Positions 36,482 through 47,369 of a stretch of DNA of 64,000 nucleotides are shown here, piece by piece. Position 1 is the stretch's first letter. Each line of letters begins with the position of its first letter. The notes beneath the pieces were generated by a model. It saw only the letters and a list, made by a program, of their open reading frames with translations, was not told where the DNA came from and did not search any database. Source of the DNA: an uncultured Flavobacteriaceae bacterium (GTDB lineage Bacteria > Bacteroidota > Bacteroidia > Flavobacteriales > Flavobacteriaceae); the NCBI GenBank assembly GCA_947500525.1, contig CANMSH010000002.1, positions 558,001 through 622,000 on the forward strand, read 5' to 3'. The translations under genes were made by a program, and so were the position numbers.

Positions 36482-37066
36482 TTATCTTGTTAAAATCATA
36501 TTATTTTCATTTATGATTTTTCTCATATTTATAATTGCATAGCGCATTCTACCTAATGAAGTATTAATACTGGTTCCTGTGTTTTCTGCTATTTCCTTAA
36601 AGCTCATGTCTCTGTATATACGCATGGTGAGTACTTCTTTTTGTTCTTTTGGTAACTTCTCCATTACTTTACGTACATCATTATGTATTTGATCTTTTAT
36701 GGTTTTCTTTTCAACATTCAACGATGCATCACTAATGACAGAGAAAATATCGAATTCGTCTGTATTTTTGAATATTGGTTTTCGACTTGCTTTTCGAAAA
36801 TGATCCATCACTAAATTGTGAGCAATTCGCATCGCCCAAGAGACAAATTTTCCTTGTTCATTATACCTCCCCGCTTTTAGCGTATTAATGATTTTAATAA
36901 ATGTATCCTGAAAGATATCTTCGGTAATTTCTCGATCGAGAACTTTAGAATAAATTAAACTGTAAATTCTTTGTTTGTGGCGTTGAATTAAAATTTCTAA
37001 TGACTTTTCATTACCGTTAATGTAATTGGCGACTAAGACGTTGTCGTCTAATTTTTGATTTTGCAT
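36482..37066 (-). CDS. ECF-type RNA polymerase sigma factor, under array B
   Basis: The 194-residue protein has region 2 (ITEDIFQDTFIKIINTLKAG) and region 4 (YRDMSFKEIAENTGTSINTS). No anti-sigma gene is next to it; terminators bracket it. Its promoter carries three 21-bp-phased repeats like those near the LytTR operon, so it may pass that signal on. It and the sigma at 43226 are the two candidates for reading the YAGGA/TTGT promoter family nearby. Confidence 0.93.
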   Translation of the reverse strand: MQNQKLDDNVLVANYINGNEKSLEILIQRHKQRIYSLIYSKVLDREITEDIFQDTFIKIINTLKAGRYNEQGKFVSWAMRIAHNLVMDHFRKASRKPIFKNTDEFDIFSVISDASLNVEKKTIKDQIHNDVRKVMEKLPKEQKEVLTMRIYRDMSFKEIAENTGTSINTSLGRMRYAIINMRKIINENNMILTR

Positions 37067-37308: not shown

Positions 37309-37890
37309 TTATATATTCGCGTATTGCTTTTGACCGGTAAAATCTAACTGAATTTTTGCTCTAGTAACGCCCCATCCAAACATCATTGCTATTTTATTCG
37401 TTGCAATTTTTCTAAACCCTATAGAAAAAGTTGGTACCTTTTCGGCTCTTTCAACTGGAACTATTACCCTAGCAACGTCGAATATCGAGTTATATTGATC
37501 TACATCGAGAACGTCAGTATTGTTGCTTAAAATTATTTCCCACTGATCCTTATTGGGGATTGTAAAAATTGCATAGGTTCCGGCCGCAACTAACTTATTG
37601 CCAAACATCACATCTTTGTATAATTTAATTTCAGTTGCTTCATTTGCTCCCGTAATCCATAGTTGATTATAGGGAACCTTTGCACCAAAAATTTCAGTAT
37701 TTTGATTATGAGAAGGTCGACCATATAACACTTTCACTAAAGGTTTTGCTACTTTAGACGCTCTATAATAGGTAATATCATGAGGCGCTTCATCTAACTT
37801 TTTAAACTCTTGCCCGCTAGAAGATAAGGTATAGAGTATTGCTGCAACTAGAATAATTAATAATCTTACATCAAATGATTTTTTCATCAT
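37309..37890 (-). CDS. DUF2911 family exported protein (paralogue 2)
   Basis: This protein of about 193 residues has signal peptide LYTLSSSGQ and the family core (VKVLYGRPSHN, LWITGANEATEIKLY, QYNSIFDVARV). The frame is open from 37926, but the adjacent Met codons at 37890/37887 give a normal signal peptide and leave the ECF-type promoter (37917-37946) upstream, so I start there. Function unknown. Confidence 0.88.
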   Translation of the reverse strand: MMKKSFDVRLLIILVAAILYTLSSSGQEFKKLDEAPHDITYYRASKVAKPLVKVLYGRPSHNQNTEIFGAKVPYNQLWITGANEATEIKLYKDVMFGNKLVAAGTYAIFTIPNKDQWEIILSNNTDVLDVDQYNSIFDVARVIVPVERAEKVPTFSIGFRKIATNKIAMMFGWGVTRAKIQLDFTGQKQYANI

Positions 37891-37916: not shown

Positions 37917-37946
37917 TATAAAACAATCGATCACTTAAAATTCCTA
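37917..37946 (-). promoter_or_regulatory. ECF-type promoter motif, copy 8 (DUF2911 paralogue 2)
   Basis: In the minus direction it reads TAGGAA, 14 nt, TTGTTTTATA. It is weaker than the other copies (A after GGA) but keeps the exact spacing. Confidence 0.5.
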
Positions 37947-37969
37947 CAACTATATAACCGGATACTAAA

Positions 37970-37999
37970 AATGCCCAAACTATTTAAAGTTTGAGCATT
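37970..37999 (-). terminator. Terminator of DUF2911 paralogue 3
   Basis: AATGCCCAAACT and AGTTTGAGCATT pair with one mismatch. The minus strand ends with a short T-run. Confidence 0.65.
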
Positions 38000-38025
38000 C
38001 TCTTCTTCCCTTTTTATTTAGCGCA

Positions 38026-38634
38026 TTAATCCATTACTTTTTTCGTAACAGTTGCTTCATAAGTTGAAGCATACAACTCTTTTGTTTTAAATCCTAATGG
38101 TACATTTACTCTAGTTGCTCCCCATCCTAATGTCATCGTAACTTCATTTTTTGTTTGTTTTCTAAAGGTAATTGCAAATGTTTCAATGTCTTCCCCTTTA
38201 CGTACTGGTACTTTCATTCTAGCTACATCAAACATAGCATCATATTGAAAAGCTCCCATCACATCAGTATTACTACTTATAATTACTTCCCATTCGTCTT
38301 TGTTAGGAATTGTATACAGTACATACGCTCCTGGCTCAATCACTTTATCTCCAAATACCACCTTATCATAGAATTTAATTTCCGTGGCTTCATTGGCACC
38401 CGTTCTCCATAATTGATTAAAAGGAACCTCAGTTCCAAAAACTTCTTTATTTCCATTATGTGATGGTCTTCCGTAAACAGCCTTCACTAAGGGTTGTGTA
38501 ATTCTACTTTCTCTATAATATGAGATATCATGTGGTACTTTATCTACTTTCACAGATCCTTGTGCAAACGCAGGTACACTAGTTATGATACTTAAGGCTA
38601 GTACGATTGTATATTGGTTGATTAATTTTTTCAT
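38026..38634 (-). CDS. DUF2911 family exported protein (paralogue 3)
   Basis: The 202-residue protein has signal peptide SVPAFAQ and the family core (VKAVYGRPSHN, LWRTGANEATEIKF, GAYVLYTIPNKDEWEVIISS, FQYDAMFDVARM). It is closer to paralogue 1 than to paralogue 2 in several segments, yet shares the ECF-type promoter class with paralogue 2. Function unknown. Confidence 0.9.
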   Translation of the reverse strand: MKKLINQYTIVLALSIITSVPAFAQGSVKVDKVPHDISYYRESRITQPLVKAVYGRPSHNGNKEVFGTEVPFNQLWRTGANEATEIKFYDKVVFGDKVIEPGAYVLYTIPNKDEWEVIISSNTDVMGAFQYDAMFDVARMKVPVRKGEDIETFAITFRKQTKNEVTMTLGWGATRVNVPLGFKTKELYASTYEATVTKKVMD

Positions 38635-38668
38635 TTGGCTATTTTTTTAAACTACTTTCTCTTTCATA

Positions 38669-38698
38669 ATAAAGACAACCATCTATTTAAAAATCCTG
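38669..38698 (-). promoter_or_regulatory. ECF-type promoter motif, copy 7 (DUF2911 paralogue 3)
   Basis: It reads CAGGAT, 14 nt, TTGTCTTTAT in the minus direction, after a T-rich stretch, 35 nt before the ATG. The rest of 38699-38886 is AT-rich with no gene. Confidence 0.7.
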
Positions 38699-38886
38699 AA
38701 AAAAAAATGAACTTTTTTTAAAATAAACCTTAAGTTACTGATAATCAATATTATAAACTATAATTTATTTTAAATATTTACCATTCATCTATCTCCTTTT
38801 TATAAAGAACTTTAAAAACATCTCTTTACAGATCAACCTTATCGTAATACTTTATACCTCTAAAATATTCTATATAGTCCAAAATA

Positions 38887-38919
38887 AAAACACCCCAACC
38901 ATGGTGGTTGAGGTGTTTT
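38887..38919 (-). terminator. Terminator of triplicated gene, unit 1
   Basis: AAAACACC, C, CAACCA pairs with TGGTTG, A, GGTGTTTT around TGG. One C-A mismatch breaks an otherwise full stem. Confidence 0.85.
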
Positions 38920-38975
38920 AAACTCCCCTTTATGCTATTAATTGTTTAAATCCAATTTACAATTGCATGCTGTTT

Positions 38976-39377
38976 TTAGTTGTTCATTGCAACACTCTCT
39001 TCAGACGATGAAGATGCTAATTCGCGCGCTGCTGATATCTTTATTCTAGATGTAATTACAAAATTCGAAGTATACAAACGAATGTTATAATTTCCTGCTG
39101 CTACTTTTGACTTTGCTATCTTACATGTAGTACTATCATTAGACGCCGTATAGATAGGCTCATTTGTTTGTGCATCTAATATTTGATATTTATAAAAAGC
39201 GTCAGCAGCTTCTAATTTAACGTTCTCATCATTACTATTGTCATAAACAGTCAAAGCTACAGTTCCATCTGGAGCCATTGTTACATATTTTAAACGTTTT
39301 GTTTCTGATTGGTTGGTTTGTGCAAAAGCTGCAAAACTTAAAAGGAATACTAGGATTGTGATAGTTAATTTTTTCAT
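38976..39377 (-). CDS. Small secreted protein, tandem copy 1
   Basis: The 133-residue protein has a signal peptide ending AAFAQ. A beta-rich domain follows (VALTVYDNSNDENVKL, YKYQILDAQTNEPIY, GNYNIRLYTSNFVITSRIKI), resembling Ig-like or sorting-type sandwiches of Bacteroidota secreted proteins, with a Ser/Glu-rich tail. It is one of three nearly identical genes at about 753-bp intervals, each with its own promoter motif and terminator. The function is unknown; high dosage seems favoured. Confidence 0.85.
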   Translation of the reverse strand: MKKLTITILVFLLSFAAFAQTNQSETKRLKYVTMAPDGTVALTVYDNSNDENVKLEAADAFYKYQILDAQTNEPIYTASNDSTTCKIAKSKVAAGNYNIRLYTSNFVITSRIKISAARELASSSSEESVAMNN

Positions 39378-39419
39378 GGCAATTTTTTTTGGATTATTGT
39401 AATTTCTTTCTCTTTCACT

Positions 39420-39449
39420 ATAAAGACAACTACACTTTTAAAACTCCTG
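39420..39449 (-). promoter_or_regulatory. ECF-type promoter motif, copy 6 (tandem copy 1)
   Basis: It reads CAGGAG, 14 nt, TTGTCTTTAT in the minus direction, 43 nt before the ATG. Confidence 0.75.
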
Positions 39450-39641
39450 AAAAAAAAGAGCTTTTTTTTGAGAAATTCATAAAATATGGATTATCAATAA
39501 TCATAAAACCCCATACATAACTGTATATTCCAAATAAAATTGCCAATTATATAAAATAATATGTCTTTATACCTCTTGATTAATACATTACTCTAGATAT
39601 ATACCATAGTATCAAAGTCACTATTTAAATTTCGATAATAA

Positions 39642-39674
39642 AAAATACCTCAACCATGGTGGTTGAGGTATTTT
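39642..39674 (-). terminator. Terminator of triplicated gene, unit 2
   Basis: The stem keeps full pairing although the base pair C-G of units 1 and 3 is T-A here (TACC with GGTA). This is a compensatory change between the copies. Confidence 0.88.
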
Positions 39675-39729
39675 AAACTCCCCTTTTGCTATTAATTGTT
39701 TTAATCCAATTTACAATTGCATGCTATTT

Positions 39730-40131
39730 TTAGTTGTTCATTGCAACACTCTCTTCAGACAATGAAGATGCTAATTCGCGTGATGCTGATATCTTTATTC
39801 TTGATGTGATTACAAAATTAGAAGTATACAAACGAATATTATAATTTCCTGCTGCTACTTTTGACTTTGCTATCTTACAAGTAGTACTATCATTAGACGC
39901 TGTGTAGACAGGCTCATTTGTTTGTGCATCTAATATTTGATATTTATAAAAAGCGTCAGCAGCTTCTAATTTAACGTTCTCATCATTACTATTATCGTAA
40001 ACAGTTAAAGCTACAGTTCCATCTGGAGCCATTGTCACATATTTTAAACGTTTTGTTTCTGATTGGTTAGTTTGTGCAAAAGTTGCAAAACTTAAAAGGA
40101 ATACTACGATTGTTATAGCTAATTTTTTCAT
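39730..40131 (-). CDS. Small secreted protein, tandem copy 2
   Basis: This 133-residue copy is the most diverged of the three, with differences in the signal peptide (AITIVV, ATFAQ) and V for I before YTASN, but the same mature domain. It lies 353 nt from each neighbour with its own promoter motif and terminator. It has no sign of decay. Confidence 0.85.
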   Translation of the reverse strand: MKKLAITIVVFLLSFATFAQTNQSETKRLKYVTMAPDGTVALTVYDNSNDENVKLEAADAFYKYQILDAQTNEPVYTASNDSTTCKIAKSKVAAGNYNIRLYTSNFVITSRIKISASRELASSLSEESVAMNN

Positions 40132-40173
40132 GGCAATTTTTTTTGGATTATTGTAATTTCTTTCTCTTTCACT

Positions 40174-40203
40174 ATAAAGACAACTATACTTTTAAATCTC
40201 CTG
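40174..40203 (-). promoter_or_regulatory. ECF-type promoter motif, copy 5 (tandem copy 2)
   Basis: It reads CAGGAG, 14 nt, TTGTCTTTAT in the minus direction, 43 nt before the ATG. Confidence 0.75.
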
Positions 40204-40393
40204 AAAAAAATAGCTTTTTTTGAGAAATTCATAAAATATGGATTATCAATAATCATAAAACCCCATACATAACTGTATAATTCAAAAAAAATTGCCAATC
40301 ATATAAAACAATATGTCTTTATAGATCTTCATCAATAAATTACCTTAGGTGTATATTATCGTATCAAAGTCACTATTTAAATTTCTATAATAA

Positions 40394-40426
40394 AAAACAC
40401 CTCAACCATGGTGGTTGAGGTGTTTT
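40394..40426 (-). terminator. Terminator of triplicated gene, unit 3
   Basis: AAAACACCTCAACCA pairs fully with TGGTTGAGGTGTTTT around TGG. Confidence 0.9.
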
Positions 40427-40482
40427 AAACTCCCCTTTATGCTATTAATTGTTTTAATCCAATTTACAATTGCATGCTATTT

Positions 40483-40884
40483 TTAGTTGTTCATTGCAAC
40501 ACTCTCTTCAGACAATGAAGATGCTAATTCTCGCGCTGCTGATATCTTTATTCTAGATGTGATTACAAAATTAGAAGTATACAAACGAATATTATAATTT
40601 CCGGCCGCTACTTTTGACTTTGCTATTTTACATGTAGTACTATTATTAGATCCTGTATAGATAGGCTCATTTGTTTGTGCATCTAATATTTGATATTTAT
40701 AAAAAGCGTCAGCAGCTTCTAATTTAACGTTCTCATCATTACTATTATCGTAAACAGTCAAAGCTACAGTTCCATCTGGAGCCATTGTCACATATTTTAA
40801 ACGTTTTGTTTCTGATTGGTTAGTTTGTGCAAAAGCTGCAAAACTTAAAAGGAATACTAGGATTGTGATAGTTAATTTTTTCAT
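40483..40884 (-). CDS. Small secreted protein, tandem copy 3
   Basis: The 133-residue copy has a signal peptide identical to copy 1 and two differences in the middle (YTGSNNS for YTASNDS). It is the promoter-distal end of the array on the + map, followed by unrelated sequence. Function unknown. Confidence 0.85.
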   Translation of the reverse strand: MKKLTITILVFLLSFAAFAQTNQSETKRLKYVTMAPDGTVALTVYDNSNDENVKLEAADAFYKYQILDAQTNEPIYTGSNNSTTCKIAKSKVAAGNYNIRLYTSNFVITSRIKISAARELASSLSEESVAMNN

Positions 40885-40926
40885 GGCAATTTTTTTTGGA
40901 TTATTGTAATTTCTTTCTCTTTCACC

Positions 40927-40956
40927 ATAAAGACAACTACACTTTTAAATCTCCTG
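40927..40956 (-). promoter_or_regulatory. ECF-type promoter motif, copy 4 (tandem copy 3)
   Basis: It reads CAGGAG, 14 nt, TTGTCTTTAT in the minus direction, 43 nt before the ATG. The 170 bases beyond it hold no gene. Confidence 0.75.
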
Positions 40957-41127
40957 AAAAAAAATAGTTTTTTTTGATAAAATTACATAATACGATAAAT
41001 ATCAGATATTTAAAATTAGTTTTCATGTTTGATGTCGGGACCAATCAATGAGACTCAACGAAGCTCATAACATGTTCACTCTATCTAGAACCATCGTCAA
41101 AACAGCATCTTTGAATTATAGTTAACA

Positions 41128-41164
41128 TAAAAAAACTCCATTCACAAAAAATTGAATGGAGTTT
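41128..41164 (-). terminator. Terminator of the FN3 lipoprotein gene
   Basis: AAACTCCATTCA and TGAATGGAGTTT pair around an 8-nt loop. The A-run at 41129-41135 gives the minus-strand T-run. Confidence 0.88.
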
Positions 41165-41187
41165 AGAAATATTATCGTTAATTCAAG

Positions 41188-43122
41188 TTATGGACATGAT
41201 CTTGTTGTAAAGATTAAAATCTTTTCTCCTGAGTTTAATTCAATAGTCGTTGCACCATCAGCCCGTACTACTATTGTAACCGACCAGCTTGCATTGAATC
41301 TTTCCATATTATCATCAGCTAAGCCTGGAATTGTCATCCTAAACATCACTCTTCCTTGTGAGTTACTAATTATTTCCCAAGTCCCTGAAAATGTTTGTCC
41401 TGAGAGTGTATTCTCCATTATTAAGGTGCCATCATTCATAAAATTGAAAATAAAATTTGAAACTTCATTCGTTTCGTCATCGTCATCATCTTCAAAACGT
41501 TGTATGGTCCAATTGGAACATGTTGTTAGCACATCTTCTATCGCCAATACTTGTGAGGCAGGTAAAGTTCTCTCAATAATGCTAGCACTTAATGAAGATG
41601 CATTATTCTCGGCATCTTTCGCTAATACAGCAAAGGCATATTCAGTATCAGATTCCAGACCTTTTACATCACAAAAGGTAGTCGTTACATATTTGAAAAA
41701 AGCACCATTTATATATACATCATATCCTTCAACACCAACATTATCTGTAGATGCATCCCATGAAAGTTCGGTACTTGAACTAGTTGTATTGTTAGCAACA
41801 AGATTTAAAGGAACACTTGGTGCCTCTGTATCTCCTGCAGATGCTAATGTAGTTATAGCAACAACATTACTTGACGCCGAATTATTGCCTGCGGCATCAA
41901 TTGCAATAACATTAAAAGAATACGAAGTATTTGGCGTTAAACTTGAGACTTCAAATATAAGTTCATCAGTCGTATCCAACAGGATCCCATCTCGGTAAAC
42001 GTCATAAGCTATGACTCCTATGTTATCAGTTGCGGCATCCCATTGCAAAGTAACCATGGTCTGTGTAATATTAGAAGCTATCAAATTTGTTGGACTAAAC
42101 GGTGCTGTTGTATCGCTAGAAGCCAATGTTGTAATGATTACACTATTACTTTCTACAGATGCATTACCAGATGCATCTCGTGCATTTACTGTAAATGTAT
42201 AAGACGTTGCAGGGTCTAGGTTATTTATGGTAATAGAGTTTGCTGAAGTAGAGGTATTAAAAATACCATTAATATATACTCCATAATTCGAAACACCAAT
42301 ATTATCCGTAGAGACATTCCAGCTTAAATCTACAGAATTTTCGGTAATATTGGTCGCTATTAAATTCGTTGGTGTAGAAGGGTTTTGAGTGTCGTCGAAA
42401 TCGTTATCAAAATAATTAAAATCATCATCTTCGTCACAACTATCTTTAACGCTATCAACAAGTATTTCTAATTCGCTTAAAGAATTGACCGTCTCTCGTG
42501 TATCATCAGATAAAATCAACGTTACTGGAAAGTTTAAACTCGCCACATCATCAACACTTAAATCTTTAATAAAATTAAATAGCTCATTGTCATTATTTAT
42601 ATCTACCTCACTGGTTTGTTCGGTAATAGTGCTGTAAACAGAAAAACTCACCGGATATAAAAAGTCTATACACTCAATATCACTATCATCTTCATTCTCG
42701 CCATTACATGTACTAGAAAGTGCATCGAATTCATTTTGATTTGATAAGATCTCTTCGCTGTAATCGGCTAAGATGACTGTAATAGGAAAGTTAAACTCAA
42801 TTACATCAGTATCAACAGTCGATTGATCAAAAATAGCTCTCACTACATCATAATCTTCATTAGCATCTATCATCACCTCTATTCCATTGGCAAAAACTGT
42901 AGTAGGTAATTTTAAACTAAAACAATTTGCAAAATCAACGATATTATCATTAGACCCATCATTTAACGTAATGTCTCTTATCAGTCCTGCAACAACAGAA
43001 TTATCATCAATAATACTGTTTTCATTATCTGGTGAAGTCACAATCGTCTCATATCTACATGACGTACATAGAGTAATCATAAAGACAACAAATAATAAAT
43101 GTTTTGTTATTTTATTTCTCAT
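41188..43122 (-). CDS. Lipoprotein with three fibronectin type III domains
   Basis: The 644-residue protein has a signal with lipobox TSC (near residue 22) and an acidic region of unknown fold with three similar strand motifs (about 30-240). Three FN3 domains follow (about 243-332, 334-425, 428-518; SWNVSTDNIGVSNYGVYING is typical). A C-terminal lipocalin-like domain (WTIQRFEDDDD, FSGTWEII, EKILIFTTRSC) ends the protein. It is probably a surface protein for adhesion or glycan binding. It diverges from the sigma/fecR locus and has the same ECF-type promoter motif. Confidence 0.82.
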   Translation of the reverse strand: MRNKITKHLLFVVFMITLCTSCRYETIVTSPDNENSIIDDNSVVAGLIRDITLNDGSNDNIVDFANCFSLKLPTTVFANGIEVMIDANEDYDVVRAIFDQSTVDTDVIEFNFPITVILADYSEEILSNQNEFDALSSTCNGENEDDSDIECIDFLYPVSFSVYSTITEQTSEVDINNDNELFNFIKDLSVDDVASLNFPVTLILSDDTRETVNSLSELEILVDSVKDSCDEDDDFNYFDNDFDDTQNPSTPTNLIATNITENSVDLSWNVSTDNIGVSNYGVYINGIFNTSTSANSITINNLDPATSYTFTVNARDASGNASVESNSVIITTLASSDTTAPFSPTNLIASNITQTMVTLQWDAATDNIGVIAYDVYRDGILLDTTDELIFEVSSLTPNTSYSFNVIAIDAAGNNSASSNVVAITTLASAGDTEAPSVPLNLVANNTTSSSTELSWDASTDNVGVEGYDVYINGAFFKYVTTTFCDVKGLESDTEYAFAVLAKDAENNASSLSASIIERTLPASQVLAIEDVLTTCSNWTIQRFEDDDDDETNEVSNFIFNFMNDGTLIMENTLSGQTFSGTWEIISNSQGRVMFRMTIPGLADDNMERFNASWSVTIVVRADGATTIELNSGEKILIFTTRSCP

Positions 43123-43144
43123 AAATCTTTAAATGCATTCTATA

Positions 43145-43174
43145 CTATAAACAATTAAGTAAGCTAAACTCCTA
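43145..43174 (-). promoter_or_regulatory. ECF-type promoter motif, copy 9 (FN3 lipoprotein)
   Basis: It reads TAGGAG, 14 nt, TTGTTTATAG in the minus direction, in the gap shared with the sigma gene. Confidence 0.6.
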
Positions 43175-43225
43175 TTCAAATAATAATTTTTTATATTTTT
43201 GACATGTTGCTAAGCTCAAATTTAT

Positions 43226-43744
43226 GTGCACATTATGAATAACTCCGTTTGCGAAGAAAAAGTATATGCTGGTATATATAAAGACTACTCTAAAGATTTA
43301 CACAATTATCTCTATTATAAATATGGAGATCAATTTGATGTAAATGATAAAGTTCAAGAAGCATTTATAAAATTATGGGATAAGTGTAAAGAAGTCTCTC
43401 TAGAAAAAGCGAAGGGTTTCGTTTTTATGGTGGCCAAAAATATGATGCTCAATGAAATTAAACATCAAAAAGTAGTTTTAAAACACCAGCAACAATCAAA
43501 ACCTAAAGACTATACAAATGAAAATCCTGAATTTTTGTTAGAAAAAGAACAATTCTATCAAAAATATCAACGAGCTCTTTCAAAATTAAGTGAAGAACAA
43601 CGTACGGCTTTTCTCTTAAATAAAGTAGAAGGAAAAAAGCATCAAGAGATCGCTGACATGCTTAATATTACTAAGAAAGTTGTTGAATATCGAATTTATT
43701 CTGCCTTTAAATTAATCAAGGAAGAAATAAAAGAATTAAAATAA
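43226..43744 (+). CDS. ECF-type sigma factor of a FecR/TonB-receptor locus
   Basis: The 172-residue protein has region 2 (DVNDKVQEAFIKLWDKCKEV) and region 4 (KHQEIADMLNITKKVVEYRI) as in Bacteroidota FecI-like factors. fecR and a TonB-dependent receptor follow on the same strand. The 216-bp gap to fecR holds three copies of an ECF-type promoter, whereas none is seen before this gene. It is the leading candidate to read that motif. An alternative ATG at residue 4 exists. Confidence 0.93.
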   Translation: MHIMNNSVCEEKVYAGIYKDYSKDLHNYLYYKYGDQFDVNDKVQEAFIKLWDKCKEVSLEKAKGFVFMVAKNMMLNEIKHQKVVLKHQQQSKPKDYTNENPEFLLEKEQFYQKYQRALSKLSEEQRTAFLLNKVEGKKHQEIADMLNITKKVVEYRIYSAFKLIKEEIKELK

Positions 43745-43756
43745 TTTATTTTTTTT

Positions 43757-43786
43757 CAGGAGTTTTTAAAAGGTAGTTGTTTTTAT
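43757..43786 (+). promoter_or_regulatory. ECF-type promoter motif, copy 1 (fecR)
   Basis: CAGGAG, 14 nt, TTGTTTTTAT, preceded by eight T. It begins 13 nt after the sigma stop. Confidence 0.75.
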
Positions 43787-43837
43787 GTTGAAAGCAATAT
43801 TTAATTTAATCTCGGAATAAATAAATTATATTTTTTT

Positions 43838-43867
43838 CAGGATATATTAAAAGTAAATTGTTTTTAA
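43838..43867 (+). promoter_or_regulatory. ECF-type promoter motif, copy 2 (fecR)
   Basis: CAGGAT, 14 nt, TTGTTTTTAA, 81 bp after copy 1. Confidence 0.65.
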
Positions 43868-43913
43868 ATAAAGAGTCATAAAAATAACACTCTAAAAAAA
43901 GTTTATTTTTTTT

Positions 43914-43943
43914 CAGGAGTTTTTAAAAACAAATTGTTTTTAT
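43914..43943 (+). promoter_or_regulatory. ECF-type promoter motif, copy 3 (fecR)
   Basis: CAGGAG, 14 nt, TTGTTTTTAT, 76 bp after copy 2 and 17 nt before the fecR ATG. A start from this copy would leave a very short leader. Confidence 0.75.
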
Positions 43944-43960
43944 AATAAATACCATAAATA

Positions 43961-44875
43961 ATGGATCAAGAAGAATTAATAAAAAAATGGTTGTCTGACG
44001 AACTTTCTCAAGCCGAAGCTGCTGAGTTTAAAAGTTTTGACGACTATGATTTGAACACAGAAATACTTGAAGGAGCAAAGCAATTTAAGGCCCCAGAATT
44101 TTCTGTTGAGGATAGTTACGAGGTATTAAAATCTAAATTAAATACTACTGAAAAGCCTCAAGAAAAACCTGTTATAAAATTAAACACTTTTAGAACCTTA
44201 TCTAGAATTGCTGCCATATTTGTGATCGGTTTAGGGGTGTATTTTATGGTTTCCTCTAATGACTTAACAACTGTTAAAACATTGGCTAGTAAACAAACTA
44301 CATTCGAATTACCTGATGCTTCTTCGGTTACGCTTAACGCGGCATCGACCATTGCTTATGATAAGAAAAAGTGGTCATCGAAAAGAGAAGTAAAATTAGA
44401 AGGTGAAGCCTATTTTAAAGTAGCTAAAGGCGCGAAGTTTGATGTGATTACCGATGAAGGCACAGTGAGTGTTTTAGGTACTCAATTTACTGTAAACAAT
44501 CGTAAGAATTATTACGAAGTGAAATGCTTTGAAGGTATTGTAAGCGTTACCACAAATGGGGTTACTGAAAAGCTAACACAAGGAAAAACGTTAAGGGTAG
44601 CTGGGAAAAAAGTTTCTTTAGATGTTATAGATAATGTAGAACCAGAATGGCTGAACAATAAAAGTAGTTTTAACAGCGTTCCTCTATACCAAGTCATAAA
44701 TGAGTTTGAAAGACAGTATAATGTTACTATTGATGCCCAAACAATCGATACAACACTTGTATTTACTGGCGGATTTGTTCATACTAATTTAGACCAAGCA
44801 TTAAAATCAATAACGATACCACTTGATTTATCTATTAAAAAGAAAAGTTCAACTAAAATTACCTTATCTAAATAA
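43961..44875 (+). CDS. FecR-family anti-sigma/sigma regulator
   Basis: The 304-residue protein has a cytosolic N-terminal region (about 1-80), one membrane helix (about 85-105, IAAIFVIGLGVYFMVSS), and a periplasmic FecR domain (TFELPDASSVTLNAAST, KREVKLEGEAYFKV, GTQFTVNNR). It ends with a secretin/TonB-type short domain. It should relay the state of the TonB receptor to the sigma factor. The downstream receptor frame overlaps its last 53 bases. Confidence 0.93.
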   Translation: MDQEELIKKWLSDELSQAEAAEFKSFDDYDLNTEILEGAKQFKAPEFSVEDSYEVLKSKLNTTEKPQEKPVIKLNTFRTLSRIAAIFVIGLGVYFMVSSNDLTTVKTLASKQTTFELPDASSVTLNAASTIAYDKKKWSSKREVKLEGEAYFKVAKGAKFDVITDEGTVSVLGTQFTVNNRKNYYEVKCFEGIVSVTTNGVTEKLTQGKTLRVAGKKVSLDVIDNVEPEWLNNKSSFNSVPLYQVINEFERQYNVTIDAQTIDTTLVFTGGFVHTNLDQALKSITIPLDLSIKKKSSTKITLSK

Positions 44876-47369
44876 AGGATATGGAAGCATACTTGCTTCG
44901 ATATTCTTTATTTTTTTTATTCACACTTCTTTACATAGTCAAAGTCAAAAAACAAAAAGACCGTTAATTGAGATCCTCACGCAGTTAGAAAAAACTTCTG
45001 GATTTCAATTTACTTATGCCAACAGTACCGTTGAAAACATAAAAATAGTTCCTCCACCAGAGACTTTTACCTTCGAAAAACAGATACTTTACCTAGAGAG
45101 AAAAACTGGTTTAGATTTCGAATTTCTTAATGATAATTTCATCGCAATAAAGATTAGTGATGAAATTATTTCTATTTGTGGTTATATACTAGATAGTGAG
45201 ACAAGTATGCCTTTGGAAGCAGTTGCTATCATTGGCAACAAACAACAATTGATTACTGACGCGTACGGTTATTTTAAAATCGAGGCTGGACTAGCTGAAA
45301 ATATTGAAATAAGATACTTAGGTTTCAAACCTATATCTATCGCAGCCAATTCAGTTAGTGATTCATCATGTGAAAATATTTATTTAGAACCAGATGTTGA
45401 ATCGTTATCTGAAATAGTACTATCCAATTTATTTGCTAATGGTATTGATAAAGTCGCTGATGGTTCAGTGAATATAAACTTCTCTAATTTTGGAATTTTA
45501 CCAGGTTTAATTGAAACTGATGTGTTACAAACCATTCAAGCATTACCAGGTATACAAAGTGCGAATGAAACCGTATCTGACATTAATATAAGAGGTGGTT
45601 CCAACGATCAAAACTTAATACTATGGGATGGTATAAAAATGTATCAATCAGGGCATTTTTTCGGATTAATATCTGCCTTAAACCCTCAAATAACACACGA
45701 CGCAGTTGTCATTAAAAACGGTACTTCTGCTGAATACAGCGATGGTGTTGCTGGTACTATTGCCATGAAAACAGATCGAAAAACGACTGGAGCGTTCAAC
45801 ACAAGCATTGCTTCTAACTTTATAAATGCCGATATTTTTACCGACATTCCTACAAACAACAACTCTTCTCTACAGATAGCTGCTAGAAAAGGAATTAGCG
45901 ATCTTGGAGCTACGCCAACCTATCAAAATTATTTCGAGAGAATTCAACAAGACACAGAAGTTCAAAACTTTGTGGATGGAGATGCAACATTCGATTTCTA
46001 TGACACTAGCCTTAGATGGTTATATGATATTTCAAGTAAAGACGAACTAAGAGCAAATTTTATTTATATAGATAATGGATTGTCTTTTTTAGAAAGTGCA
46101 GAAATTAATGGTGCTTTAACATCTCGCGCCAGTAGACTTGAACAAAATACGCTAGCAGCAGGTTTACACTATAAGAGAATTTGGAATTCGAATCTAACAA
46201 CCACTATCAATTTGACTAATAGCGAGTATAAATTAGGAGCGAACAATGTAAATTTACAACAAGCCAATAGACTCATGCAAGTGAATAAAGTTGAAGAGAC
46301 ATCTTTAAAAGCGAATACATGGCTGACTATTAATGACGAAATATCATTGTTAAATGGTTACCAATTCACTGAAACAGCCGTGAACAACTTGACGGATGTA
46401 GATGATCCGCTTTTTATTCGACTAGTACGTGAAGTTATTAGAGAGCATGGTTTATATTCTCAATTCGATTATAAAAATGACAGGACTAATGTAAAAATTG
46501 GTGCTCGTTATAACTATATTTCTAAATTCAAAAAGCATCTTGTAGAGCCTAGGATTAGCGTAAATCATAAACTTACCGATGCCATAAGTGTAAATGCCTC
46601 TGGAGAGTTTAAACATCAAAACACCATGCAAATCATCAACTTTCAGAATGATTTTTTTGGTGTTGAAAAGCGCAGATGGTTCTTATCCAATGATACAAAA
46701 AGACCCGTCATACAAAGCAAACAAGTGTCATTAGGAACAAGTTTATCTAATGATGGTTGGCTCATTAACCTTGAAGGATATTTCAAAAATGTAAACGGTA
46801 TTTCGGCGCAAAGCCAAGGTTTCTTGAATGATTATATCTTTAGCGATGCTATAGGATCTTATGATGTATATGGAGTTGAGTTTCTATTAAATAAAAAGAT
46901 CAATAAATTCAGCACATGGTTGAGCTATACGTATGCCAACAACGAATATACCTTTGATGATTTAAGAGAAATTAATTTTCCGAACAATATAGATATAAGA
47001 CATAGCATGACTTTTGGTATTTCTTATATCGTGAATGATTTTAAACTTTCGGGAGGAGTGAACTGGCATACCGGTATACCAACCACAGAACCTGTTGCCG
47101 GAAATGAATTTGTAAATGATCGTATTAATTACGAACCTGCCAATAGCAGTAACCTCAACGACTATTTTAGAGTTGATCTCTCTGCTACCTATAAATTCAA
47201 TGTAACTAAAAAGATCAAAGCGCAAACCGGACTTTCTGTTTGGAACACTTCTAACAATCGAAATATAATTAGCAGGTATTATAATGGTGATGAAGCCAAC
47301 GGCGTGAATGCAATTACGAAAAACGCCTTAGAACTGACACCAAACTTTAGTTTTAGAGTACTTTTTTAA
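44823..47369 (+). CDS. TonB-dependent outer-membrane receptor with signalling domain
   Basis: The frame gives 848 residues. After a signal-like helix (SILASIFFIFFIHTSLHSQ) comes a secretin/TonB short domain (ILTQLEKTSGFQFTYANSTV), a carboxypeptidase-like domain (about 115-185), a plug (TIQALPGIQSANETVSDINIRGGSNDQNLILWDGI) and a beta-barrel ending in FSFRVLF. The short N-terminal domain suits contact with FecR. No ATG lies before the signal peptide; TTG at 44823 inside fecR is the best start. Substrate is unknown, and no SusD partner is adjacent. Confidence 0.88.
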   Translation: MIYLLKRKVQLKLPYLNKGYGSILASIFFIFFIHTSLHSQSQKTKRPLIEILTQLEKTSGFQFTYANSTVENIKIVPPPETFTFEKQILYLERKTGLDFEFLNDNFIAIKISDEIISICGYILDSETSMPLEAVAIIGNKQQLITDAYGYFKIEAGLAENIEIRYLGFKPISIAANSVSDSSCENIYLEPDVESLSEIVLSNLFANGIDKVADGSVNINFSNFGILPGLIETDVLQTIQALPGIQSANETVSDINIRGGSNDQNLILWDGIKMYQSGHFFGLISALNPQITHDAVVIKNGTSAEYSDGVAGTIAMKTDRKTTGAFNTSIASNFINADIFTDIPTNNNSSLQIAARKGISDLGATPTYQNYFERIQQDTEVQNFVDGDATFDFYDTSLRWLYDISSKDELRANFIYIDNGLSFLESAEINGALTSRASRLEQNTLAAGLHYKRIWNSNLTTTINLTNSEYKLGANNVNLQQANRLMQVNKVEETSLKANTWLTINDEISLLNGYQFTETAVNNLTDVDDPLFIRLVREVIREHGLYSQFDYKNDRTNVKIGARYNYISKFKKHLVEPRISVNHKLTDAISVNASGEFKHQNTMQIINFQNDFFGVEKRRWFLSNDTKRPVIQSKQVSLGTSLSNDGWLINLEGYFKNVNGISAQSQGFLNDYIFSDAIGSYDVYGVEFLLNKKINKFSTWLSYTYANNEYTFDDLREINFPNNIDIRHSMTFGISYIVNDFKLSGGVNWHTGIPTTEPVAGNEFVNDRINYEPANSSNLNDYFRVDLSATYKFNVTKKIKAQTGLSVWNTSNNRNIISRYYNGDEANGVNAITKNALELTPNFSFRVLF

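Follow-up and report, generated by a model that had tools for sequence, protein, structure and literature searches.

Which protein reads the short motif YAGGA-N15-TTGTYTT, and how far does the set of genes behind it extend? This question is raised by a 64,000-nucleotide stretch of DNA from an uncultured Flavobacteriaceae bacterium (GCA_947500525.1, contig CANMSH010000002.1, positions 558,001 to 622,000; hereafter the window), in which the motif precedes fecR, two DUF2911 genes, three genes for secreted proteins and a lipoprotein gene with fibronectin type III (FN3) domains. The original prediction held that nine copies form promoters of an extracytoplasmic function (ECF) sigma factor and define a local regulon. 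We refer to the ECF sigma factor encoded at 43226 as sigA and to its paralogue in the same genome as sigB; genomes, contigs and loci are cited by their handles (G, C and L numbers; G000 is the genome of the window). Judged from the DNA, the nine sites are very probably promoters for sigA.

The window contains eight exact matches of YAGGA-N15-TTGTYTT, all within 37920-43940, compared with a mean of 0.08 and a maximum of 3 in 100 dinucleotide shuffles of the window. The ninth copy, TAGGA-N15-TTGTTTA upstream of the FN3 lipoprotein gene, differs by one mismatch (the final T is missing), and the N15 spacing is identical in all nine, confirming the count and spacing that had been predicted. The start codons are ATGs 20-45 nt beyond the nearest site (29 nt for DUF2911 gene a, 37 nt for DUF2911 gene b, 45 nt for all three secreted-protein genes, 25 nt for the FN3 lipoprotein gene and 20 nt from the last copy to fecR). 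The T-run noted before most copies was recovered at seven of the nine sites, with 7-8 T among the eight bases before YAGGA; the sites of DUF2911 gene a and the FN3 lipoprotein have 4. ECF promoters follow a general rule of GGA at -35 and GT(C/T) at -10, about 17 nt apart. The motif, read as GGA-N15-TTGTY, agrees with this rule at the sequence level, as had been expected.

Genome-wide (3.59 Mb), 19 matches of the pattern stand against 4 of its reversed version. Eight of the 19 lie at the window locus, five are intergenic elsewhere and six (L001, L011, L012, L013, L017 and L018) were set aside as probable chance matches because they fall inside or antisense to open reading frames (ORFs). Since the forward pattern outnumbers the reversed one and eight matches concentrate at one locus, the motif is not a generic feature of AT-rich DNA, the alternative that the genome scan had been suggested to address.

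We then compared loci found with sigA as the query, taking the best 80 of 87 confirmed loci, from records mostly titled Flavobacteriaceae or its genera (among them Aureibaculum flavum) and in a few cases only Flavobacteriales or Bacteroidetes. Between the sigma gene and fecR, the strict pattern YAGGA-N15-YTGTY was found on the plus strand at 54 of 80 loci and on the minus strand at none; within 400 nt upstream of the sigma gene, it was found on the minus strand at 51 and on the plus strand at one. Aquimarina records account for many of the misses; at this position they have AAAGGA. The relaxed pattern GGR-N15-KTGTY occurs between sigma gene and fecR at 80 of 80 loci in the direction of fecR and at none on the other strand. 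In the divergent direction it occurs within 300 nt upstream of the sigma gene at 74 loci (plus strand at N15, one locus). Other spacings of the relaxed pattern (5-14 and 16-25) reached at most eight of the 80 loci between the two genes and five in the divergent position. A single spacing combined with a fixed direction would be hard to explain except as a promoter. The number of sites upstream of fecR varies within the genus, with three in the window genome, two in G002 and G004 and one in G007, G008, G009 and G013.

Two dialects of the motif were distinguished in 17 genomes of the genus. The C-type (class A, TTTCAGGA-N15-TTGTYWT) has 44 matches and none for the reversed pattern. In the seven genomes whose sigA is close (77% or more) there are 37 matches, including 29 at the sigA locus; another four lie in three genomes with a more distant sigA (67-70%) and three in seven genomes without sigA. 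The T-type (class B, GGTAGGAA-N14-TTGTTNT) has 88 matches versus 2 reversed, dispersed over the 17 genomes. The proposed local regulon therefore holds for the C-type dialect, given the share of its matches at the sigA locus in the seven genomes, but was drawn too narrowly: the core motif accompanies a whole family of FecR-linked sigma factors, and the T-type sites of sigB, the closest paralogue of sigA (58% identical), are dispersed.

For 107 distinct sigma factors, we compared residue 155 (sigA numbering) of the recognition helix with the base immediately preceding AGGA. At the divergent site, factors with Tyr155 were paired with C in 62 cases, G in two, T in one and A in one (11 had no site), those with Lys155 with T in nine (five had no site), those with Asn155 with A in 15, and the single Gly155 factor with C. 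The fecR site gave C 68 times for Tyr155, besides six A, one G and two without a site; for Lys155 it gave ten T and four without a site, for Asn155 14 A and one G, and for Gly155 no site. The four Lys155 rows lacking a fecR site (L097, L101, L102 and L103) read GGTAGGA with CTGT and so fall outside the pattern, which has TTGT.

Orientation, exact spacing, conservation across the 80 loci and the agreement between recognition helix and base strongly support the promoter reading, and the central claim of the original prediction, that this is an ECF promoter motif, is upheld. As a wider and tentative proposal, to which we give somewhat less than an even chance, the sites may belong to a natural promoter code of a FecR-linked ECF sigma family in Flavobacteriaceae. 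The core AGGA-N15-TTGTY would be fixed, and the preceding base (C, T or A) would vary in step with residue 155 (Tyr, Lys or Asn). Paralogues would thereby avoid cross-talk, with sigA acting locally and sigB at dispersed sites, where a structured small RNA would have been taken over.

Several observations weigh against these readings. The relaxed pattern was picked only after the misses of the strict pattern had been seen. The 80 loci share ancestry and were selected for a similar sigma factor; they therefore amount to fewer than 80 independent trials. The three secreted-protein sites, spaced at 753-754 bp in units that are ~95% identical (~595 bases compared) and each have their own terminator, are duplicates and count as one event because the units are repeats; the three fecR sites may also be local duplicates. 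Two of the nine window sites (those of DUF2911 gene a and the FN3 lipoprotein) have T where the others have C, and the FN3 lipoprotein site is the sole Tyr155 row with T. A C-type site is present in G006, which has a sigB-like match only, with a near-identical site in G007 and G009, and another in G005, in whose 87% complete assembly no such sigma factor turned up. When the helix was left out of tree building, the tree required three changes at residue 155, the minimum for four states; with only three changes, the agreement between residue and base could reflect common ancestry. In G004, a second DUF2911 gene (L165:2161-2766) has no listed site, and in G002 and G004 no clean site precedes the lipoprotein gene directly divergent from the sigma gene, where chance may account for the relaxed match.

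The sequence by itself would also be compatible with a bound protein other than RNA polymerase, in which case the motif would be the operator of a transcription factor. We regard this as improbable, since its orientation is fixed towards the gene (80/80 versus 0/80), only one spacing occurs, the core is not palindromic and the motif agrees with the recognition helix of the sigma factor; nearness to the sigma gene was not counted here, the loci having been selected for that gene. A chance or repeat artefact in AT-rich DNA could be imagined from the 32% G+C of the window and from the fact that six of the nine copies belong to local repeats or are near neighbours, but we give it practically no weight: a chance origin is rejected by the shuffles and the reversed-pattern controls, and the spacing result at the 80 partly independent loci contradicts it.

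A further question is whether sigA is the only reader. The other ECF sigma gene of the window (36482-37066) was rejected as motif reader, as it encodes a distant sigma factor (22% identity, E 0.016). sigB might serve the two T-type window sites (37920 and 43148), or both sigma factors might read all nine, given the similarity of the two proteins, the AGGA-N15-TTGT shared by both dialects and the site of DUF2911 gene a, which reads TAGGAATTTTAA as several sigB-type sites do. However, both T-type window sites lack the GG preceding TAGGAA by which the sigB pattern is recognized, and class A is rare where sigA is missing (the three matches in seven genomes), and we therefore consider shared use of the sites unlikely, though far less so than an operator.

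For the nine sites as sigA promoters, we propose a circuit. Gene content, conservation, the position, direction and spacing of the sites and the pairing of residue and base can be read from the sequence; binding, transcription, start points, the ligand, its releasing action and a damping feedback are inferred by analogy with known FecI/FecR systems. sigA would recognize a -35 core AGGA and a -10 core TTGTY exactly 15 nt apart. FecR would hold sigA at the inner membrane until its release by a ligand that either binds the TonB-dependent receptor or passes through it. Free sigA would then transcribe fecR and the receptor gene from three promoters, and also the divergent lipoprotein gene, the two DUF2911 genes and the three secreted-protein cassettes. 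sigA would not transcribe its own gene from such a site; induction would thus make more anti-sigma factor and receptor, which would damp and re-arm the circuit.

Features of the sigA locus and its sites (coordinates of the window)
Feature	Position	Strand	Remark
DUF2911 secreted protein a	37309..37890	-	Pfam PF11138, 2.3e-36
Site TAGGA-N15-TTGTTTT	37920..37946	-	upstream of DUF2911 gene a (ATG at 37890)
DUF2911 secreted protein b	38026..38634	-	Pfam PF11138, 1.9e-40
Site CAGGA-N15-TTGTCTT	38672..38698	-	upstream of DUF2911 gene b
133-amino-acid secreted protein 1	38976..39377	-	terminator 38887-38919
Site of secreted protein 1	39423..39449	-	exact motif match
133-amino-acid secreted protein 2	39730..40131	-	terminator 39642-39674
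Site of secreted protein 2	40177..40203	-	exact motif match
133-amino-acid secreted protein 3	40483..40884	-	terminator 40394-40426
Site of secreted protein 3	40930..40956	-	exact motif match
FN3 lipoprotein	41188..43122	-	three FN3 domains (Pfam) flanked by parts matching the shorter lipoprotein of relatives
Ninth site TAGGA-N15-TTGTTTA	43148..43174	-	divergent from sigA, upstream of FN3 lipoprotein gene
ECF sigma factor sigA, proposed motif reader	43226..43744	+	Sigma70_r2 and Sigma70_r4_2 above cut-off, 172 amino acids
fecR site 1	43757..43783	+	exact motif match
fecR site 2	43838..43864	+	exact motif match
fecR site 3	43914..43940	+	exact motif match, ATG 20 nt further on
FecR anti-sigma factor/transducer	43961..44875	+	FecR and FecR_C domains
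TonB-dependent receptor	44823..47369	+	Plug above cut-off; CarbopepD_reg_2 just below

With sigma-70 regions 2 and 4 in a short protein, sigA has the make-up of an ECF sigma factor; it stays below the cut-offs of TIGR02985 (Sig70_bacteroi1; 106.2 versus 126.4 bits) and of the FecI equivalog NF041727 (47.6 versus 260 bits). Sigma factor, FecR and TonB-dependent receptor genes adjoin in the window in a FecI/FecR/FecA-type arrangement. The genome has 23 Sigma70_r2 matches (22 over the cut-off) and only two FecR genes. No STN domain match was found in the window receptor at E<=5; the receptor orthologue of G009 has a FecR_C-like match at residues 28-91 (8.4e-5), just under the cut-off. The Pfam scan of DUF2911 protein a used the longer ORF start at 37926, and a search by sequence for solved structural relatives of DUF2911 gave none at E<=1. 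Secreted proteins 1 and 3 matched no Pfam family at E<=0.001.

At the 80 loci, FN3 lipoprotein homologues are encoded divergently from the sigma gene in 79 cases, and in most of these a site lies no more than 100 nt from the listed start. FecR homologues are present at 79 loci and receptor homologues at 74. From these counts we take sigma factor, FecR, receptor and divergent lipoprotein as the core. DUF2911 and the 133-amino-acid protein were each found at two of the 80 loci, counts that are lower bounds since the stretches cover at most 6 kb on each side of the sigma gene (the DUF2911 copies of G004 sit at or past the edge of stretch L204). DUF2911 was thus not supported as a core member, and the DUF2911 and 133-amino-acid secreted-protein genes look like lineage additions. 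Within the genus, each of the seven genomes with a close sigA carries a DUF2911 gene (Pfam) behind one site or more; in G008 gene and site are ~270 nt apart.

Many relatives have a lipoprotein of ~357 amino acids, so the FN3 domains of the window lipoprotein look like an insertion; in some relatives a second small lipoprotein gene adjoins. We modeled the structure of one orthologue from an alignment of 40 orthologues (mean pLDDT 84.4, pTM 0.55). This orthologue had no Pfam family at E<=5, and its model no Foldseek match at E<=0.001. A second structural comparison placed residues ~242-355 among small beta-barrels, including ToxS, DUF4847 and lipocalin-like proteins (highest Z 9.8; Z of at least 8 for 11 chains). 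In the model, the C-terminal part is thus a small beta-barrel that resembles lipocalin-like and other proteins.

The second FecR gene of the genome adjoins sigB (G000, C1:106890-108075, L180), and the FecR encoded there lacks FecR_C. No receptor follows the sigB-side FecR in the stretches read of G000, G002, G004 and G016; at the sigB loci of G008 and G009 a receptor follows, and FecR is longer. In G000, G002 and G004, sigB-type sites lie before mscL, the fecR next to sigB and genes for a TetR-type regulator, for a long secreted-like protein (622 amino acids in G000) and for two further secreted-like proteins (about 240 and 256 amino acids), and also before an ORF of ~54 amino acids (in G000 with the site AGTTAGGAG) and an RNA element. 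Counterparts were matched by their start sequence, with Pfam assignments for G000 only (mscL and TetR). The first ORF that the L014 site points to has 53 amino acids. A PorP/SprF gene follows a sigB-type site in G009, and the PorP/SprF site is present in G007 too. gldL (GldL_N) of G000 follows a site without the GG, TAGGA-N15-TTGTTAT (C3:15682-15718; L059, L190), in the gap that separates gldL from a lipoprotein-like gene, a hint of a connection with gliding and type IX secretion.

Downstream of several sigB-type sites lies a structured element ~55 nt long, present in G000 at C6:166572-166724 and C6:168491-168642 (L015, L016, L189) and in the wider family at loci L284-L339. It has two covarying helices and invariant loops GAAACATA..TAA and CTAAAAAGAAAC. 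In 21 sequences, which are related and are the same ones from which the structure was drawn, 89.1% of cells pair and the covariation score reaches 0.397; slid controls give at most 42.9% and 0.118, respectively. Three of five measures exceed all of 500 shuffles; pairs changed on both sides were reached by 38 of the 500 and further pair types by 255. A model of the element found matches in 64 of 149 genomes of the family at E<=0.001. Among 30 loci drawn from these matches (28 from other genera and two of the Aureibaculum group), 20 carry a sigma-54-like box (TGGYAY-TTG) in the 75 nt upstream, and none carries one on the other strand. At the two Aureibaculum-group loci an ECF-type site takes its place, and the remaining eight have no sigma-54-like match. 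L015 and L016 had no Rfam match at gathering score, and the matches of the element by E-value (three loci; five loci; part of L299) were all below that score. A further copy (G000, C1:661594-661661) lies directly upstream of another sigma-70-type gene, beside a gene for a 290-amino-acid sigma factor.

An exact and conserved code would allow candidate targets of such a sigma factor to be listed from any genome, and it carries a prediction of one residue and one base. The motif would also give a regulatory context to DUF2911 proteins, to the modeled lipoprotein orthologue without a Pfam family and to a structured RNA below the Rfam gathering score. A common, little-studied signaling system would become directly testable through the signal that its genes share.

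In our literature search we recognized no description of this motif, and a motif for this sigma group may have been published; few promoter sequences of FecR-linked Bacteroidota ECF sigma factors were found. For the ECF sigma factors of B. thetaiotaomicron, the available part of one account states that no promoter motif was known in 2020 (PMC7366714). Alternative-sigma promoters have been described within the same bacterial family, in Flavobacterium psychrophilum, where the accessible portions of the report list the classes SM5 (TAnnTTGY) and the ECF-type SM6 (CGT), the latter before type IX secretion genes and also before the putative regulatory RNA Rfp11, and a sigma-54 motif before Rfp36 (PMC9723704). 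Compared by these descriptions, neither the SM5 nor the SM6 box reads AGGA-N15-TTGTY; the word FecR is absent from the main text of that paper. Polysaccharide utilization loci of Bacteroides, as far as the consulted sections describe them, tie an ECF sigma factor and an anti-sigma factor to a SusC-like transporter (PMC11501099). The window likewise has an ECF sigma factor and an anti-sigma factor beside a TonB-dependent receptor but, unlike those loci, no polysaccharide-degradation family at cut-off among its proposed targets.

The FecI/FecR/FecA system of cell-surface signaling has the same three gene types side by side. sigA does not lie behind a site of its own, and FecI is likewise not known to be under its own promoter. 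In contrast to that system, the locus described here has a conserved divergent lipoprotein as a fourth member, a fecR gene behind the motif and a promoter code that appears to be its own. sigA also lies far below the FecI equivalog cut-off; the comparison covered the gene types.

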